Source of the DNA: Halovulum marinum
GTDB lineage: Bacteria; Pseudomonadota; Alphaproteobacteria; Rhodobacterales; Rhodobacteraceae
Length of the DNA: 64,000 nucleotides
NCBI RefSeq assembly: GCF_009697225.1
Contig: NZ_WIND01000002.1
Span: forward strand, 434,001-498,000
Direction: 5' to 3'
The position numbers were made by a program, and so were the translations under genes. Position 1 is the stretch's first letter. Every line of letters starts with the position of its first letter. The notes beneath the pieces were generated by a model. The model had not been told where the DNA came from. It did not search any database and was given only the letters and a program-made list of their open reading frames with translations. Positions 32,928 through 39,439 of this stretch are shown here, in pieces.

Positions 32928-33257
32928 TCAGCGGCGTCCCGTCACCAGCCCGACCAGAAACCCGAACGCCGCGGCCATGCCGACGGCGGTGGCCGGGTTC
33001 TCGCGCACCTTGACCTCGACCTGCGAATAGGCGTCGGTGGCCTGCCGCTGCGCCTCGGCCAGGCCGGCCTCGCCCATCGCGGCGGCGCGCAGCGCCTGAT
33101 CGCGTGCGTGGGTGGACAGATCCTCGGCCCGGGCCTTGCCGTACTCGCCCAGCGTGCGGGTCAGCGCCGCCATGTCGTCGCGCAGCGTGGCGATCTGCTC
33201 CTGCAGGTCCTCGATCGTCGGTTCGGTCTTGCTCGGGGTGTCGGCCGCGCGCGCCAT
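32928..33257 (-). CDS. DUF883 (ElaB/YqjD-type) membrane-anchored protein
   Basis: 109 residues. An amphipathic helical region (20-85, IEDLQEQIATLRDDMAAL) ends in a C-terminal glycine-rich membrane segment (NPATAVGMAAAFGFLVGLVTGR), the DUF883 hallmark. E. coli ElaB and YqjD are C-tail-anchored, stationary-phase proteins, YqjD being ribosome-binding. ATG 33257 is preceded by AAGGAG. First gene of a pair with the holin-like gene, transcribed from an EcfG promoter about 30 bp upstream. Confidence 0.85.
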   Translation of the reverse strand: MARAADTPSKTEPTIEDLQEQIATLRDDMAALTRTLGEYGKARAEDLSTHARDQALRAAAMGEAGLAEAQRQATDAYSQVEVKVRENPATAVGMAAAFGFLVGLVTGRR

Positions 33258-33292
33258 TGGGTTCTCCTTGGGTCATGCAGGTGCGTAACACG

Positions 33293-33317
33293 AACGCCGC
33301 GGGCGCGGTAAAGTTCC
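33293..33317 (-). promoter_or_regulatory. Sigma-EcfG promoter (GGAAC-N16-CGTT) of the DUF883 unit
   Basis: Minus-strand GGAAC (33317-33313) and CGTT (33296-33293), spacer 16 bp. The predicted start lies about 29 bp before the DUF883 ATG. It is back-to-back with the DUF1328 promoter. Confidence 0.75.
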
Positions 33318-33349
33318 CGTGCCGGCGCGGCGCAGACCCAGGCTGGGCG

Positions 33350-33374
33350 GGAACCAATTCACGGAATGTTCGTT
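33350..33374 (+). promoter_or_regulatory. Sigma-EcfG promoter (GGAAC-N16-CGTT) of the DUF1328 gene
   Basis: GGAAC at 33350-33354 and CGTT at 33371-33374, spacer 16 bp. The predicted start, near 33381, is about 45 bp before the DUF1328 ATG. Confidence 0.75.
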
Positions 33375-33425
33375 GTCCGCCCATGAAGACGCGGCCCGCG
33401 TCACAGTCAGACAAGGAGAAATACC

Positions 33426-33599
33426 ATGCTGGGTTGGGCCCTTACATTTCTCGTGATCGCGCTGATCGCCGGCATCTTCGGCTTCGGCGGCATCGCCAGC
33501 GCGTCGGCCGGGATCGCGCAGATCCTGTTCTTCGTGTTCCTGGTGCTGTTCATCGTCGCCATGGTGGCGCGCGCCGTCCGCGGCCGACCGCCGACCTGA
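33426..33599 (+). CDS. DUF1328 (YtjA family) small membrane protein
   Basis: 57 residues starting [20 protein letters not shown], the DUF1328/YtjA signature, with two short membrane helices (about 4-24 and 31-50) around a glycine-rich turn. The function is unknown; homologues are part of stress regulons in several bacteria. The start follows AAGGAGAAATACC. An EcfG promoter lies 50-75 bp upstream. Dps follows after 180 bp on the same strand and might be read from the same transcript if the hairpin between them is weak. Confidence 0.85.
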
Positions 33600-33700
33600 T
33601 CGCGTCCTGATCGCGTCGCACGACTCGCGCGCCGACGCGACCGGCGCGGGATCTGACGCGGGATGTGACGGCGGGCGCATCGCGAGACACCGAAACCGGG

Positions 33701-33718
33701 GGCGGCCTGAGGGCCGCC
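33701..33718 (+). terminator. Weak hairpin between DUF1328 and dps
   Basis: 7-bp perfect stem GGCGGCC (33701-33707) / GGCCGCC (33712-33718), loop 4 nt, followed by TT only. Could attenuate, or only partly end, the DUF1328 transcript. Confidence 0.35.
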
Positions 33719-33779
33719 TTCGACCGTACCGGGGGCGCGGCGCCGCAGCCGCAGCCCGGTCCCGAAGCAGGAGATCACC

Positions 33780-34274
33780 ATGGCCAATCCGAATTCAGTC
33801 ATCCCCGGCCTGTCGGAGGTCGAGACCGGCGTGCGCAACGCGCCGGCGCTGGCCGACGCACTGTCGAGCGTGCTGTCCGACACCTACCGGCTGATGATCA
33901 AGACCCACAGCTATCACTGGAATGTCGAGGGGCCGCTGTTCCACGCCATCCATACGATGACCGAGGAACAGTACCAGGACCTGTTCGAGGCCACAGACGA
34001 GCTGGCCGAGCGGATCCGCGCGCTGGGACACCTTGCGCCCGGCCGGATCGACGAGATCACCGGCGGCTCGGTGGTCGGCGACACCGTCGACAACGCCACG
34101 GCGGTGCGGATGGCTGCCGACCTTGCGGCGGATCACGAGCGGCTGGCGCAGCGCCTGCACGCGCTGATCCGCATGGCCGAGGCGCAGAACGACCCGGTCA
34201 CCGCCGACATGGCGACCGCGCGTTCGGCGGCACACGAGAAGTCGGCCTGGATGCTGCGCGCCACGGCGAAGTGA
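33780..34274 (+). CDS. dps: Dps-family DNA-binding ferritin-like protein
   Basis: 164 residues. The Dps ferroxidase motif is SYHWNVEGPLFHAIH near residue 43, with the second half EATDELAERIR. Dps forms 12-mer shells, oxidises Fe(II) with peroxide and protects DNA in stationary phase. ATG 33780 follows CAGGAGA. It lies beside the general-stress locus and downstream of the EcfG-controlled DUF1328 gene; I found no EcfG promoter of its own. Convergent with phyR, from which it is separated by a large hairpin. Confidence 0.93.
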   Translation: MANPNSVIPGLSEVETGVRNAPALADALSSVLSDTYRLMIKTHSYHWNVEGPLFHAIHTMTEEQYQDLFEATDELAERIRALGHLAPGRIDEITGGSVVGDTVDNATAVRMAADLAADHERLAQRLHALIRMAEAQNDPVTADMATARSAAHEKSAWMLRATAK

Positions 34275-34387
34275 GTGCCGAAGTGAGCGGCGAAGCGAGC
34301 GGGCCGACGGCGGCGCGAGGCGCCCGAGCCGGCCGCGGCCGGGACCGGAGGAGCGGCTGACGTGCGAGCGGAAGGTGGACCGGCGAT

Positions 34388-34436
34388 CTTGCAGACGATT
34401 GGCCCCGCCGGATGTCCAGCGGGGCCTGTCTGCAAG
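34388..34436. other. Two-tier 49-nt stem-loop between convergent dps and phyR
   Basis: Outer stem CTTGCAGAC (34388-34396) / GTCTGCAAG (34428-34436), inner stem GGCCCCGC (34401-34408) / GCGGGGCC (34419-34426), 10-nt loop. Both stems are perfect. No T-run follows on either strand, so it is not a standard intrinsic terminator. Confidence 0.6.
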
Positions 34437-34457
34437 CCGGATCCTGGGAGCGGAAAC

Positions 34458-35270
34458 TCAGGCCTGCAGCGTCTCGGTGCTGGAGAAGAACATCGCCTGG
34501 CTGACCGCCGACTGCACCTGCGCCTCGGAGTAGGGCTTGGTGATCACGAACGCCGGCTCCGGCCGGTCGCCGGTCAGCAGCCGCTCGGGATAGGCGGTGA
34601 TGAAGATCACCGGGATGTCCGAGGCCGAGGCGAGTATCTCGTTCACCGCCTCGATTCCCGAGGACCCGTCGGCCAGTTGGATGTCGGACAGGATCAGGTC
34701 CGGCTTCTCGCGCAGGGCCTGCTCGACCGCGCCCTTGTGGGTGCGGGCGACGCCGGTGACGGAATGGCCCATGTCGGTGACGATGGTCTGCAGGTCCAGC
34801 GCGATGATCGGCTCGTCCTCGATCACCAGGATGCGGCCGCGCATGGCTTCTTCCATCTCGCGGTGCGCGACGCCGATCAGATGCTCGACCTCGCTGCCCG
34901 AAAGCGACATCACCGCCGCGATCTCGGGATGGGTGAATTCCTCGATCGTCGACAGCAGCAGCGCCTCGCGGGTGTCGGGGGTCAGCTGGGCAAGCCGGCG
35001 CTGCGCGCTTTGCGCGATGCCGATTTCGGATTCCTCGACCGGGGCGCCGGCGCTTTTCCAGATCATGTGGAACGCGCGGAACAGCGCCACCTTCGAAGAC
35101 AGGTCGCGCTGGATGATGCTCGGATCTTCAAGTATCGCCTCGAGTGTCGCGGCGGCGTAGTTGTCTCCGGTCGTCTGGCTGCCGGTCAGCGCGCGCGCGT
35201 AGCGGCGCAGGTACGGCAGCAGCTGCCCCACGGTTTCGGAGAAAACGGCACCTTGTGCGTCGTTGGGCAT
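34458..35270 (-). CDS. phyR: Anti-anti-sigma response regulator PhyR
   Basis: 270 residues. The N-terminal half (about 1-130) is an ECF-sigma-like domain (LLPYLRRYARALTG; TREALLLSTIEEFTHPEIAAVM) and the C-terminal half a receiver domain with GRILVIEDEPIIALDLQ and the phosphoacceptor Asp in DLILSDIQLADG. Phosphorylated PhyR sequesters NepR and frees EcfG. The ATG at 35270 is about 46 bp after the predicted EcfG start site. Divergent from nepR-ecfG, with a shared bidirectional promoter: a typical alphaproteobacterial general stress locus. Confidence 0.96.
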   Translation of the reverse strand: MPNDAQGAVFSETVGQLLPYLRRYARALTGSQTTGDNYAAATLEAILEDPSIIQRDLSSKVALFRAFHMIWKSAGAPVEESEIGIAQSAQRRLAQLTPDTREALLLSTIEEFTHPEIAAVMSLSGSEVEHLIGVAHREMEEAMRGRILVIEDEPIIALDLQTIVTDMGHSVTGVARTHKGAVEQALREKPDLILSDIQLADGSSGIEAVNEILASASDIPVIFITAYPERLLTGDRPEPAFVITKPYSEAQVQSAVSQAMFFSSTETLQA

Positions 35271-35315
35271 GAAGTTCGGTCCCCTCTGCGTTTTTTGGGA
35301 TATGTCGTTTTTCTT

Positions 35316-35348
35316 GGAACCGAACGCGGCCGGTGTGCGTTCGGTTCC
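35316..35348. promoter_or_regulatory. Overlapping divergent sigma-EcfG promoters (nepR and phyR)
   Basis: Plus strand: GGAAC 35316-35320, N17, CGTT 35338-35341. Minus strand: GGAAC 35348-35344, N17, CGTT 35326-35323. The two promoters interlock in one inverted repeat (GGAACCGAACGC ... GCGTTCGGTTCC). Each lies about 45 bp from its gene, so EcfG would autoregulate both sides, but two holoenzymes could hardly bind at once. Confidence 0.8.
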
Positions 35349-35388
35349 CGACGAGAGCAGTTTTTTTGAATCCGGAACAGGACGAAGG

Positions 35389-35556
35389 ATGGGCAACGAT
35401 AACGAAAAGCCGGCGCTGGAACGGCAGATAGAAGAGAATCTGCGGCGCGTGTACCAGCAGAACATGCAAGAGGATGTGCCTGATCGTTTCAAGGAGCTTC
35501 TGGCGAAGCTGAAAGCGCGGGATTCCCAGTTTTCGGAGCAGGACAACGGTAAATGA
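35389..35556 (+). CDS. nepR: Anti-sigma factor NepR
   Basis: 55 residues. IEENLRRVYQQNMQEDVPDRF (residues about 15-35) is the NepR core that clamps EcfG and PhyR. NepR holds EcfG inactive until PhyR-P binds it. The ATG at 35389 is set by GAAGG just upstream; the frame is open further upstream, but only as non-conserved sequence. The 3' end overlaps the ecfG start by 4 bp, so anti-sigma and sigma are made in fixed ratio. Confidence 0.93.
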   Translation: MGNDNEKPALERQIEENLRRVYQQNMQEDVPDRFKELLAKLKARDSQFSEQDNGK

Positions 35557-36137
35557 CCGCGGCGCAAGCGAAAGACATACCCGACCCGCGCGAAGAGCTG
35601 GTCGAGCATCTTCCGGCTATGCGCGCGTTCGCGTTGAGCCTGACGCGCAACCGCGCGGCTGCCGACGACCTGGTCCAGGATTCCATCGTCAAGGCCTGGC
35701 AGAACATCGACAAGTTCCAGCCGGGAACCAACCTTCGGGCATGGTTGTTCACGATTCTGCGCAACCTGTTCTACTCGGCGCGGCGCAAGAGCAAGCGCGA
35801 GGTGCAGGACAGCGACGGCGCGATGATGGCCACGCTGTCCGAGAAGCCCGAGCATGACGGGCGGCTGGCGATGGCGGATTTCGAGACCGCGTTCGCCAAG
35901 CTGAACGTCGAGCAACGAGAGGCACTTATCCTTGTCGGGGCCTCCGGCTTCTCCTACGAAGAGGCGGCGGGCATGTGCGGCGTCGCCATGGGCACGATCA
36001 AGAGCCGGGTCAACCGCGGCCGTGCCCGTCTGGTGGAGTTGCTGGATCTGAAGGAGGATGAGGCATTGGAGTTGACGGACAAGTCAACGATGGCGGTCGT
36101 CACGGCGCGCCTGCTGCCGAACAAGGACTTCGTTTGA
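35553..36137 (+). CDS. ecfG: General stress sigma factor EcfG (ECF15)
   Basis: 194 residues with sigma region 2 (FALSLTRNRAAADDLVQDS, KFQPGTNLRAWLF) and region 4 (LNVEQREALILVGASGFSYE, MGTIKSRVNRGRARL). It is the ECF15-type sigma that recognises GGAAC-N16/17-CGTT; at least seven such sites in this window lie upstream of genes. ATG 35553 overlaps nepR; the stop overlaps the TTG start of the kinase gene, so all three are coupled. Confidence 0.95.
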   Translation: MTAAQAKDIPDPREELVEHLPAMRAFALSLTRNRAAADDLVQDSIVKAWQNIDKFQPGTNLRAWLFTILRNLFYSARRKSKREVQDSDGAMMATLSEKPEHDGRLAMADFETAFAKLNVEQREALILVGASGFSYEEAAGMCGVAMGTIKSRVNRGRARLVELLDLKEDEALELTDKSTMAVVTARLLPNKDFV

Positions 36138-37855
36138 CGGCACGCCTCGGCGAGCTGACCCGGGGCCTCGCGTTCCGGTTCGCGATACTTCTGGCCCTGG
36201 CGCTTCTGCCCGTCGGGGCCATCGCCATCTATCAGACCCTGGAACTGGTCCGGGAGGCGAACGAGCAGGCCGAGGATTCGCTGCTGGCGATCGCCGCGGA
36301 CGCGGCGGCGCGCGAAGCCGGGCTGATCCGCAGCGCGATCGGCGCGGGCGAGGCGATCGGCGCCATCGTTCCGGACCTCGGCGACGACCCGGACGAGTGC
36401 CGGCGGCTGCTGGCGGATTTCGTGCGCGCCTCGGGCCGGTACAGTTTCGCCGCCTTCGTCGATGCCGATGGCAGGCTGTGTTCGTCGAAGGGCAATGTCA
36501 GCGACATACGGACGGCGCGGATCTTCGACGGCATGCAGACCGCCAAGTCGCCGAAGGTGGATCTGGTGATCTCGGATATCCTCGACAGCGTGCCCTCGAT
36601 CGTGGTCTCGGTGCCGATCAGGCCCGGCAGCGAGGAATTTGCCGGGTTCGTCTCGATCGCGCTGCCGCAGACCCGGCTGTTCAGCCGCCTGGACGAGGCG
36701 GGCACCGCGCGGCCGGTCGACATCGTGACCTTCAACTCCGGCGGGCAGGTCTTGTCAGCCGAGGCCGGCCTGCAGGGCGTGGAGAACCGCCTGCCTGCGG
36801 ACCGGCCGCTGTCCTCTTTCATCGGCGAGATGGCCAACGCCTTTACCGGCGACACCGTGGCCGGCGAAAAGCGGGTGTTCGCCTCGGTGCCGCTGGTATC
36901 AGGCACGGTCTATGCGCTGGCGATCTGGGACGACGACACGCTGGCGTTCCAGCCGGGTGCGGGGAACCTGATGGTCCCGGTGCTGTTCCCGCTGCTGATG
37001 TGGCTGGCAAGCCTTTGCGTCGCGTTCCTGGCGGTGCGGCGGCTGGTGATCCGGCCGACCCGGAACCTGCGGGCGCGGATGCTGCAGTTCATGCGTTCGC
37101 GCCACATCAGTCCGCCGCGTGAAGGCCGCCTGGTGTCCGCCGAGCTGCAGGACATCGACGAGACCTGGAACCGGATGGCCGAGAGCGTGCTGCGCGACGA
37201 GGCCGAGATGGAGGACATGCTGCACGACAAGACCGTGCTGCTGCGCGAGGTCCATCACCGGGTGAAGAACAATCTTCAGCTGATCGTGTCGATCCTGAAC
37301 ATGAAGATCCGCCGGACCGCGGCGCCCGAGGCGAAGTCGGTGCTGCAGGACGTGCAGCACCGGGTGATGAGCATGGCGACGGTGCACCGGCATCTGTACG
37401 AAAGCTCCGACCAGGGCCGGGTGCCGATGGACGAGCTGATGCGCGCGATCGTCGCCCACGTCACCGCCGCGCTGCTGCCACCGGATTCCGGCATCTCGAT
37501 CGGCGAGAACTACCAGGCGGTGGTCCTGTACCCCGACCAGGCGGTGCCGCTGACCCTGGCCGCGACCGAGGCGATCACCAACGCGCTGAAGTACCTCGGG
37601 CGGCCCGACGCCGGCACGCCCTGGATCTCCATCGGCCTGAGCCGCGAGGACAAGTCGGCGGTGCTGGAGGTCGCGAACTCGGTCGGGCCGCCGCTGCCGA
37701 CCGCCGGCGGGCCGAACAGCAGCGGCATGGGCGAGCAGCTGCTGCGCGCATTCGCCGCGCAGCTCGACGGCGTGCTCTCCGCCGAGGAGGATGGGGAACG
37801 ATACGTCATCCGGCTGCGTTTTCCGATCGGCAGCTTCGTGCAGGAAGTCGCCTGA
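36134..37855 (+). CDS. HisKA_2 membrane sensor histidine kinase (putative PhyR kinase)
   Basis: 573 residues from TTG 36134, which overlaps the ecfG stop. N-terminal membrane helix (about 12-32), a periplasmic sensor domain (about 35-275), a second helix (about 278-305), a HAMP-like linker, then the HisKA_2 phosphoacceptor REVHHRVKNNLQLIVSI near residue 373 and an HATPase domain whose visible N-box is TEAITNALKY. The HisKA_2/HWE class, and the position right after ecfG, make it the likely kinase of PhyR. The TTG start probably keeps the kinase at a low level. Confidence 0.88.
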   Translation: MTARLGELTRGLAFRFAILLALALLPVGAIAIYQTLELVREANEQAEDSLLAIAADAAAREAGLIRSAIGAGEAIGAIVPDLGDDPDECRRLLADFVRASGRYSFAAFVDADGRLCSSKGNVSDIRTARIFDGMQTAKSPKVDLVISDILDSVPSIVVSVPIRPGSEEFAGFVSIALPQTRLFSRLDEAGTARPVDIVTFNSGGQVLSAEAGLQGVENRLPADRPLSSFIGEMANAFTGDTVAGEKRVFASVPLVSGTVYALAIWDDDTLAFQPGAGNLMVPVLFPLLMWLASLCVAFLAVRRLVIRPTRNLRARMLQFMRSRHISPPREGRLVSAELQDIDETWNRMAESVLRDEAEMEDMLHDKTVLLREVHHRVKNNLQLIVSILNMKIRRTAAPEAKSVLQDVQHRVMSMATVHRHLYESSDQGRVPMDELMRAIVAHVTAALLPPDSGISIGENYQAVVLYPDQAVPLTLAATEAITNALKYLGRPDAGTPWISIGLSREDKSAVLEVANSVGPPLPTAGGPNSSGMGEQLLRAFAAQLDGVLSAEEDGERYVIRLRFPIGSFVQEVA

Positions 37856-37870
37856 GCAAGGAGTGTCACG

Positions 37871-39439
37871 ATGCGCGACACGCAGCCGCCGCAGGGGGGC
37901 AGCCCGGCCGTTGCCAAACGGCGGCTGAAGGTTCTGGTGACCGCGGAGGAAGCCTATCCGGCGTTCGAACGCGCGGTGCTGGACGCGCGGCACGACCTGC
38001 GCATGGGATTCCGGATCTTCGATCCGGCCACCCGGTTGCGGTCTTCCGCCGGAAAGGCGGTCGGAACCGACTGGGCCGACCTGCTTGCCGATGCGCTGGC
38101 GCGCGGCGTGCGGATCGAGCTGCTGCTGGGCGATTTCGACCCGCTGATGGCGACCGAGCTGCACCGCTGCTGCTGGCGCACGATGCGCATGCTGGCCGGG
38201 GTGCGCGAGCTGGCCGGTCCGGACGCCGCACCGCTGGTGGTGCGCCCGCTGCTGCATCCCGCCGCCGTCGCCACGCTGCCGCGGCTGGTGTTCTGGCCGC
38301 TGACCGCGATGATCCTGCGGCGCAGGTTCCGCGAACTGAACAAGCTGCCGCACGCCGAGCAGGCGCTGCGCCGCGCCGAGTCGCCCGGTCTGTGCGCGCT
38401 CGAGTCGCACCCGCCGTTCTGGCCGCTGCCGCTGTTCCCGGTGTCGCACCACCAGAAGATCGCCACGATCGACGACCGGCTGGTCTACATCGGCGGGCTC
38501 GACCTGGACGAGCGCCGCTGGGACAGCCGCGAGCACGACCAGCCGGCGCAGGACACCTGGCATGACGTCCAGCTGCTGCTCGAGGATGCGGCGCTGGCGC
38601 GCTCGGTGCGGGCGCATCTGGACAGCGTGCCGGCGGTCACCGCCGGGCGCGCCGCGCCGCCGCCGGCGCCGGGGCTGCTGCGCACGCTGTCGCGGCGGCG
38701 GCGGCACGGATCGCTGGCGCTGGCGCCGAAGACCGTGGTGCGCGACCTGGCGGTGGAGCATTACCGCCAGGTGCGCCGCGCCGAGCAGCTGATCTACCTC
38801 GAGACGCAGTTCTTCCGCGACCTCCGGCTGGCGCGGCGGCTGGCGGCGCGGGCCCGGTCCCAGCCGGGGCTGAAGCTGATCGTGGTGATCCCCGCCGCGC
38901 CCGAGGTGGTCGCCTTCACCCAGGCGCCGCCGCTGGACGGGCGGTTCGGCGATTTCCTGCAGACGCGCTGCCTGATGCGGCTGCGCCGCGCGTTCGGCGA
39001 CCGGCTGCTGGTCGCCAGCCCGGTGCAGCCGCGCCGGAGCAACGGCGTCGACGCCGGGGCCGAGCGCGCCTCGCTGCGCGGCTCGCCGCTGGTCTACCTG
39101 CATTCCAAGGTGTCGATCTTCGACGACCGCGCGGCGATCGTGTCCTCGGCCAACCTGAACGGCCGCTCGCTGAGCTGGGACACGGAGACCGGCGTCTGCC
39201 TGTCCGACCCGGACGAGGTGGCGCAGGTGCGGGCGCGGGTGATGGGGGCCTGGCTGGACGACGAGCCGCCCCCCGAGGCGCTGGATCCGGCGACGGCGTT
39301 CGGCTACTGGCGCGGGCTGGCGCAGGCGAACGCGCGCTCGGCACCGGCGCGCCGCCGCGGCTTTCTGGTGCCCTATGACATCCGGGCCGCGCGCGCGACC
39401 GCGCTGCCGGTGCCGGGCGCCCCCGAGGAAATGGTCTGA
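37871..39439 (+). CDS. Phospholipase D-like protein
   Basis: 522 residues with two HKD motifs: HQKIATIDD near residue 195 (HxKxxxxD) and HSKVSIFDD near residue 412. PLD-type enzymes hydrolyse or transfer phosphodiester head groups; cardiolipin synthase-like enzymes also share this motif pair. No signal peptide or membrane helix stands out. It is 15 bp downstream of the kinase gene, so it is probably the last gene of nepR-ecfG-kinase-pld. The function in stress is unclear. Confidence 0.85.
   Translation: MRDTQPPQGGSPAVAKRRLKVLVTAEEAYPAFERAVLDARHDLRMGFRIFDPATRLRSSAGKAVGTDWADLLADALARGVRIELLLGDFDPLMATELHRCCWRTMRMLAGVRELAGPDAAPLVVRPLLHPAAVATLPRLVFWPLTAMILRRRFRELNKLPHAEQALRRAESPGLCALESHPPFWPLPLFPVSHHQKIATIDDRLVYIGGLDLDERRWDSREHDQPAQDTWHDVQLLLEDAALARSVRAHLDSVPAVTAGRAAPPPAPGLLRTLSRRRRHGSLALAPKTVVRDLAVEHYRQVRRAEQLIYLETQFFRDLRLARRLAARARSQPGLKLIVVIPAAPEVVAFTQAPPLDGRFGDFLQTRCLMRLRRAFGDRLLVASPVQPRRSNGVDAGAERASLRGSPLVYLHSKVSIFDDRAAIVSSANLNGRSLSWDTETGVCLSDPDEVAQVRARVMGAWLDDEPPPEALDPATAFGYWRGLAQANARSAPARRRGFLVPYDIRAARATALPVPGAPEEMV

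Follow-up and report, generated by a model that had tools for sequence, protein, structure and literature searches.

Interlocked divergent EcfG-type promoter motifs between phyR and nepR–ecfG, conserved across Rhodobacterales

The partner switch of the alphaproteobacterial general stress response is established (PMC4814048). Its function hinges on the proportions in which PhyR, NepR and EcfG are present, all of which are under EcfG feedback. The genes phyR and ecfG–nepR are mostly divergent and both are expressed from EcfG promoters, and co-regulation probably keeps the required stoichiometry, as stated in the sections of Francez-Charlot et al. 2016 (PMC4814048) that were available. In Halovulum marinum the two predicted promoters were found within the same 33 bp. 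The locus thus raises the question of whether a single site has to choose between the two sides of the switch; if it does, the ratio is written in the DNA and not in two independently tuned promoters. All coordinates given for H. marinum refer to the window, i.e., the whole analysed stretch of 64,000 nucleotides (contig NZ_WIND01000002.1, positions 434,001 to 498,000, forward strand), unless indicated otherwise.

The phyR gene, which encodes the anti-anti-sigma response regulator, lies on the minus strand (34458–35270, ATG at 35270; Pfam PhyR_sigma2, 5.6e-26; Response_reg, 2.7e-14; PhyR_sigma-like, 2.2e-13). On the plus strand, the gene for the anti-sigma factor NepR (35389–35556, ATG at 35389, 55 aa; Pfam NepR, 2.9e-15) is followed by the ECF sigma factor gene ecfG (35553–36137; Pfam Sigma70_r2, 1.1e-18; Sigma70_r4_2, 1.9e-12), the frame of which overlaps nepR by 4 bases, and by a gene for an HWE/HisKA_2 histidine kinase (36134–37855, plus strand; Pfam HisKA_2, 3.7e-24; HWE_HK, 8e-9) that is probably part of the same operon as ecfG. 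A full PhyR match was missing in two sampled genomes of the same genus (G001 and G002); phyR, nepR and ecfG are present in H. marinum (34458–36137), which may reflect a loss in the former or a gain in the latter. EcfG-like motifs also precede DUF883_C, DUF1328 and phospholipase-D-like genes near the switch; a ferritin-like (Dps-type) gene is interspersed with these, and the region 32928–39439 is likely a general-stress island. One adjacent divergent pair of EcfG motifs, located at 33293–33317 (minus strand) and 33350–33374 (plus strand) before a gene with a DUF883_C domain and a DUF1328 gene (Pfam), is separate, with 32 bp between the two motifs; interlocking is therefore no rule for every divergent EcfG pair in this genome.

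The interval 35316–35348 (plus strand GGAACCGAACGCGGCCGGTGTGCGTTCGGTTCC) consists of perfect 12-bp inverted arms, GGAACCGAACGC and GCGTTCGGTTCC, around a largely asymmetric 9-nt centre; 26 of its 33 positions, two of the nine central ones among them, are identical to its own reverse complement. Both strands carry an exact GGAAC-N17-CGTT, in opposite directions. The predicted promoter of nepR–ecfG (35316–35341, plus strand) has GGAAC at 35316–35320 and CGTT at 35338–35341, and that of phyR (35323–35348, minus strand) has GGAAC at 35348–35344 and CGTT at 35326–35323; by the usual spacing, with the start assumed ∼7 nt past CGTT, transcription would begin at ∼35348 and ∼35316, respectively. These sites agree with the EcfG holoenzyme consensus GGAAC-N16,17-C/GGTT (PMC4814048, PMC12148442) in the −35 element, the 16–17 bp spacer and the −10 element, exactly and with N17 on both strands, and the predicted leaders are near-equal (41 nt for nepR, 46 nt for phyR) and short, as is characteristic of EcfG-type promoters before stress-response genes. 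The earlier note on this DNA had described two complete, opposed GGAAC-N17-CGTT promoters in one 33-bp inverted repeat, and this description holds: both motifs are exact and well placed for phyR and nepR–ecfG, the repeat being one of 12+9+12 and not a perfect 33-bp palindrome. A terminator or hairpin reading of the element was discarded, as no terminator-like hairpin was detected at 35150–35560.

The two motifs overlap by 19 of their 26 bp; their −10 elements (35338–35341 and 35323–35326) are separate and do not overlap, and the predicted start sites, judged from motif positions, are ∼32 bp apart. In the interlock, each promoter's −10 element sits 1–3 bp inward of the −35 element of the other. 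With 19 bp in common, two polymerases could not bind together, and the earlier claim that probably only one polymerase can be accommodated at a time is upheld by this geometry to the extent that single occupancy is very likely.

Motifs of this type are over-represented in H. marinum: the window contains 11 copies of GGAAC-N15-19-CGTT (1.63 expected), and GGAAC-N16-18-CGTT occurs 122 times in the whole genome vs 44 times for the reversed pattern. A second both-strand match in the genome (contig C23, 29439–29467) falls within an open frame of 480 aa; it is probably a chance occurrence and was not retained. For the order as a whole, 390 Rhodobacterales genomes from 139 genera were drawn and searched with the genome-wide interlock pattern GGAAC-N1-3-AACG-N9-13-CGTT-N2-GTTCC, which was present in 88 genomes (53 genera), the reversed control being found in two of the 390. 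Loci were built from the pattern matches in 30 of these 88 genomes, and all 30 sit at phyR–nepR. PhyR was detected in 261 of the 390 genomes and in 46 of 289 genomes of the class sample. From the 261, 150 genomes were sampled (the 30 pattern-match loci and 120 more), a sample that is biased to profile-like PhyRs; the best 80 of 560 matches served as one further source of loci. Upstream regions of phyR were taken from 286 loci, 22 of which were excluded because a divergent NepR was not detected, and the remaining 264 collapsed to 231 distinct intergenic sequences from Rhodobacterales and 27 from elsewhere.

Both motifs, scored with a strict CGTT −10 element, were exact and interlocked in 96 of the 231 Rhodobacterales loci, and interlocked with no more than one mismatch per motif in 191, a positive outcome of the test proposed in the earlier note, namely whether the palindrome is kept across Rhodobacteraceae. 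In most of the bacteria examined in this group, the two opposed promoters are thus confined to 32–33 bp. The looser C/GGTT motif gave 109 and 193 loci, respectively. Within 40 bp, the strict motif occurred at offsets of 6 (n=50), 7 (n=136) and 8 (n=9) and at no others; this restriction holds for the strict motif, and the looser one, at one mismatch, added offsets of 2 (71), 3 (9), 5 (16), −3 (7), −4 (1) and −28 (1), which were taken as mostly secondary readings of the same elements. Correspondingly, the class with both motifs at another offset comprised 12 loci with the looser motif vs one with the strict motif. Dinucleotide shuffles of the 231 intergenic regions, scored with the looser motif, yielded no interlocked exact pair in 11,550 shuffles and no interlocked pair at one mismatch in 4,620, and the reversed-sequence control, scored with the strict motif, yielded none in 231 loci. 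A chance origin was ruled out by the shuffles and the reversed controls; the interlock is neither an accident nor a peculiarity of H. marinum.

A conserved inverted repeat might instead serve as operator for a dimeric regulator of phyR and nepR, the likeness to EcfG promoters being secondary, and the perfect 12-bp arms in H. marinum, together with at least 11 of 12 identical arm positions in 76 of the 191 elements, would suit such a site. Mirror symmetry beyond the promoter motifs and a fixed arm spacing would then be expected. In the 191 elements, however, gap and centre lengths are combined in ten different ways; the two promoter spacers are constant at 16–17 bp, and the distance between the arms changes by insertions and deletions, unlike in a rigid dimer site. 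Covariation at positions that EcfG leaves free was slight and inconsistent: mirror identity was 55 of 122 at position 7 (50.6 expected) and 63 at position 12 (68.9 expected), was in deficit at positions 13 and 14, and showed a slight excess only at position 6 (100 vs 95.2 expected, reached in 6 of 500 shuffles) and position 16 (43 vs 32.6, 14 of 500). The strongly conserved columns were all located within, or next to, a −35 or −10 element. Because offset and centre drift and the free positions barely covary, the palindrome is best read as a by-product of two interlocked promoters, and the dimer operator appears very improbable. The partial complementarity of the EcfG −35 (GGAAC) and −10 (CGTT) elements (AAC/GTT) may ease the reaching of such arrangements.

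Among the 40 Rhodobacterales loci that are not interlocked, 33 have the nepR motif only, three the phyR motif only and three neither; the remaining one (L274, genome G212) is, with the strict −10 element, the sole locus of the 231 scored as two separated divergent EcfG promoters. When the looser motif was applied, 36 of 39 loci with a nepR site at no more than one mismatch had at least three mismatches in nine positions at the expected phyR promoter, and the phyR half appears to have decayed in most of the 39; in a few of them (e.g., L066 and L082) the chosen nepR site lies elsewhere and the phyR-side count is little informative. Near-interlocks are found at L080 and L085 (zero and one phyR-side mismatches), and L109 has two.

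A quick tree of 111 PhyR proteins, calculated without bootstrap and with long outgroup branches, placed 79 Rhodobacterales rows on a single branch (SH-aLRT 100), comprising 61 interlocked, one weak and 16 single or empty loci and one other pair. The 14 Paracoccus rows form one clade with no interlocked member; the nepR motif is retained there and the phyR half has decayed. The interlocked label required six changes on the tree vs a mean of 35.7 after shuffling. On the simplest reading, the interlock is ancestral to Rhodobacterales, with a single loss in Paracoccus and a few further losses in other lineages. The absence of the palindrome from relatives that keep functional promoters, which the earlier note had named as evidence against its proposal, was encountered for both promoters at L274 only, and in Paracoccus for the nepR promoter alone. 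Paracoccus without the phyR half and L274 with separated promoters indicate that the interlock is dispensable.

The phyR–nepR gaps of Paracoccus (L112, L116, L124, L133, L135, L137, L140, L143, L144, L161, L165 and similar loci) have a common motif like CTTGTGCGCAC, including the palindrome GTGCGCAC (slightly altered at some loci), which adjoins the nepR −10 element at about the expected nepR start. This motif may be an operator or a piece of a new phyR promoter.

Outside Rhodobacterales, a divergent NepR was detected at 61 of 126 loci, 57 of them distinct: six were interlocked, 11 back-to-back and six superposed, 17 had the nepR motif only, three the phyR motif only and five none, and nine were arranged in other ways. 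The interlocked loci belong to two families (five to f42 and one to f149) and are possibly independent. Eight of the 11 back-to-back pairs have an 8-bp gap (families f5, f93, f107, f121 and f137); this constant distance of 8 bp between the −35 elements of the phyR and nepR motifs was observed at L013, L177, L179, L187, L188 and L192 in the five families. In family f37 (L195 and L196) one GGAACC-N15-GGTTCC provides an EcfG-like promoter on both strands, an even tighter superposition.

The presence of two motifs does not require that both be used, and EcfG-dependent transcription might proceed in one direction alone, the opposite motif being a relic and its gene driven from elsewhere. The nepR motif stands alone in Paracoccus, and among offset-7 elements conservation is somewhat weaker in the phyR −10 than in the nepR −10, both in keeping with such an asymmetry. 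Locus L075 of genome G133, which we take to be Rhodobacter sphaeroides 2.4.1, has an exact interlock with perfect 12-bp arms and a NepR of 68 aa. According to the available portions of a study of R. sphaeroides (PMC5830050), differential RNA-seq assigned a single promoter, located upstream of the nepR-like gene, to this gene and ecfG. In the same study, singlet oxygen, superoxide and diamide raised phyR mRNA 2–3 fold; ecfG mRNA was raised by membrane stress only, in a PhyR-dependent manner and without a rise of phyR. That phyR mRNA did not track ecfG mRNA in membrane stress (PMC5830050) favours the use of one direction; these mRNA data, as far as available, fit a fixed ratio poorly and agree with one direction winning or with extra phyR promoters. 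Exact motifs are, however, present on the phyR side in 149 and on the nepR side in 124 of the 231 Rhodobacterales loci (strict −10 element, sums over classes), and a relic would not remain exact over so old a branch; moreover, no sigma-70-like promoter from which either gene could alternatively be driven was detected at 35150–35560. We regard it as unlikely that only one of the two motifs is in use.

It appears probable, from the arrangement of the motifs and its conservation, that the element is a single-occupancy bidirectional EcfG promoter, i.e., that interlocked phyR and nepR–ecfG promoters are occupied in one holoenzyme orientation at a time. Stress would free EcfG, the holoenzyme would bind the element in one of two orientations, and each new holoenzyme would yield either the PhyR or the NepR–EcfG message, total output being limited by one site. 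If competition were the sole control, the partition would be set by the two relative affinities, independently of the amount of free EcfG, and the ratio of PhyR to NepR–EcfG would stay steady through positive feedback. Occupancy arithmetic with assumed affinities (K1=1, K2=0.3) gave a constant ratio of 3.33 for exclusive sites, whereas for separate sites, which tend to equal occupancy, the ratio fell from 3.31 to 1.02 over a 10,000-fold rise in holoenzyme; these values illustrate the assumptions and are not evidence of function. A role in choice or in the setting of the ratio, including the sharpening or damping of the switch proposed in the earlier note, is plausible. It is a doubtful extension of this role that the interlock has been selected to set the ratio, relative affinity fixing PhyR to NepR–EcfG irrespective of the amount of EcfG and so keeping a positive-feedback switch reversible; other lineages would perhaps attain this through different arrangements (back-to-back pairs 8 bp apart, superposed sites, or the interlocks of f42 and f149).

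The least certain step is that occupancy is high enough for competition to count. The overlap might be functionless, having arisen in the ancestor of Rhodobacterales and been inherited with each promoter kept for its own gene, at occupancies that are always too low. The drift of the geometry, with its ten gap/centre combinations and 16–17 bp spacers, accords with such an economy, as does inheritance across a single branch of the PhyR tree; since either gene requires its promoter, conservation of the overlap may be mere inheritance. Competition would count only at high occupancy; the basal activity of five bidirectional promoters of Escherichia coli did not suffice for it (PMC12825309). In the same source, as far as available, such promoters compete only once activated, and the constraint reduces noise. 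The ∼118 bp between the start codons of phyR and nepR in H. marinum would nevertheless offer space for separate promoters, and yet only one of 231 Rhodobacterales loci (strict −10 element) has them separated; interlocks also occur in families f42 and f149; and the EcfG loop is one of positive feedback, so stress should raise occupancy. Inheritance without function is a serious possibility that falls somewhat short of being probable. The interlocked arrangement is widespread, small and easily split by mutation, and natural variants exist in Paracoccus and at L274; the setting of stoichiometry by single-occupancy promoters in a sigma/anti-sigma switch is for these reasons directly testable.

The arrangement is real, old and locus-specific. 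It is like the divergent EcfG promoters of phyR and nepR–ecfG of other Alphaproteobacteria in genes, sigma factor and consensus (GGAAC-N16,17-C/GGTT); the published accounts, in the portions available (PMC4814048, PMC12148442), make no mention of overlap, and most of the loci examined outside Rhodobacterales are arranged otherwise, e.g., back-to-back with an 8-bp gap. A description of overlapping phyR/nepR EcfG promoters was not found in the literature searched, including the available parts of PMC4814048, PMC5830050, PMC12148442, PMC7083833, PMC6599016 and PMC3892343; an earlier mention, for instance in the older papers on EcfG, SigT and PhyR, is quite possible. Warman et al. 2026 (PMC12825309, as far as available) and work cited therein treat bidirectional promoters of prokaryotes, E. 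coli among them, with which the element has in common a pseudo-symmetric DNA and, as predicted from the 19 shared bp, two polymerase orientations that would exclude each other. Those promoters have a common or overlapping −10 element and starts mostly 10, 18 or 23 bp apart (PMC12825309). The phyR/nepR element, in contrast, has separate −10 elements, interlocked −35 and −10 elements, predicted starts ∼32 bp apart and an ECF sigma factor, and so falls outside that type. At the motif level (19 of 26 bp in common, with this geometry in 191 of 231 loci) it belongs to the general class of overlapping divergent promoters, which is already known. Two opposed promoters over the same DNA are reportedly treated as a class in a review by Beck and Warren. 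The phyR/nepR element differs from this class in that one sigma factor serves both promoters and, through them, feeds both sides of its own partner switch.
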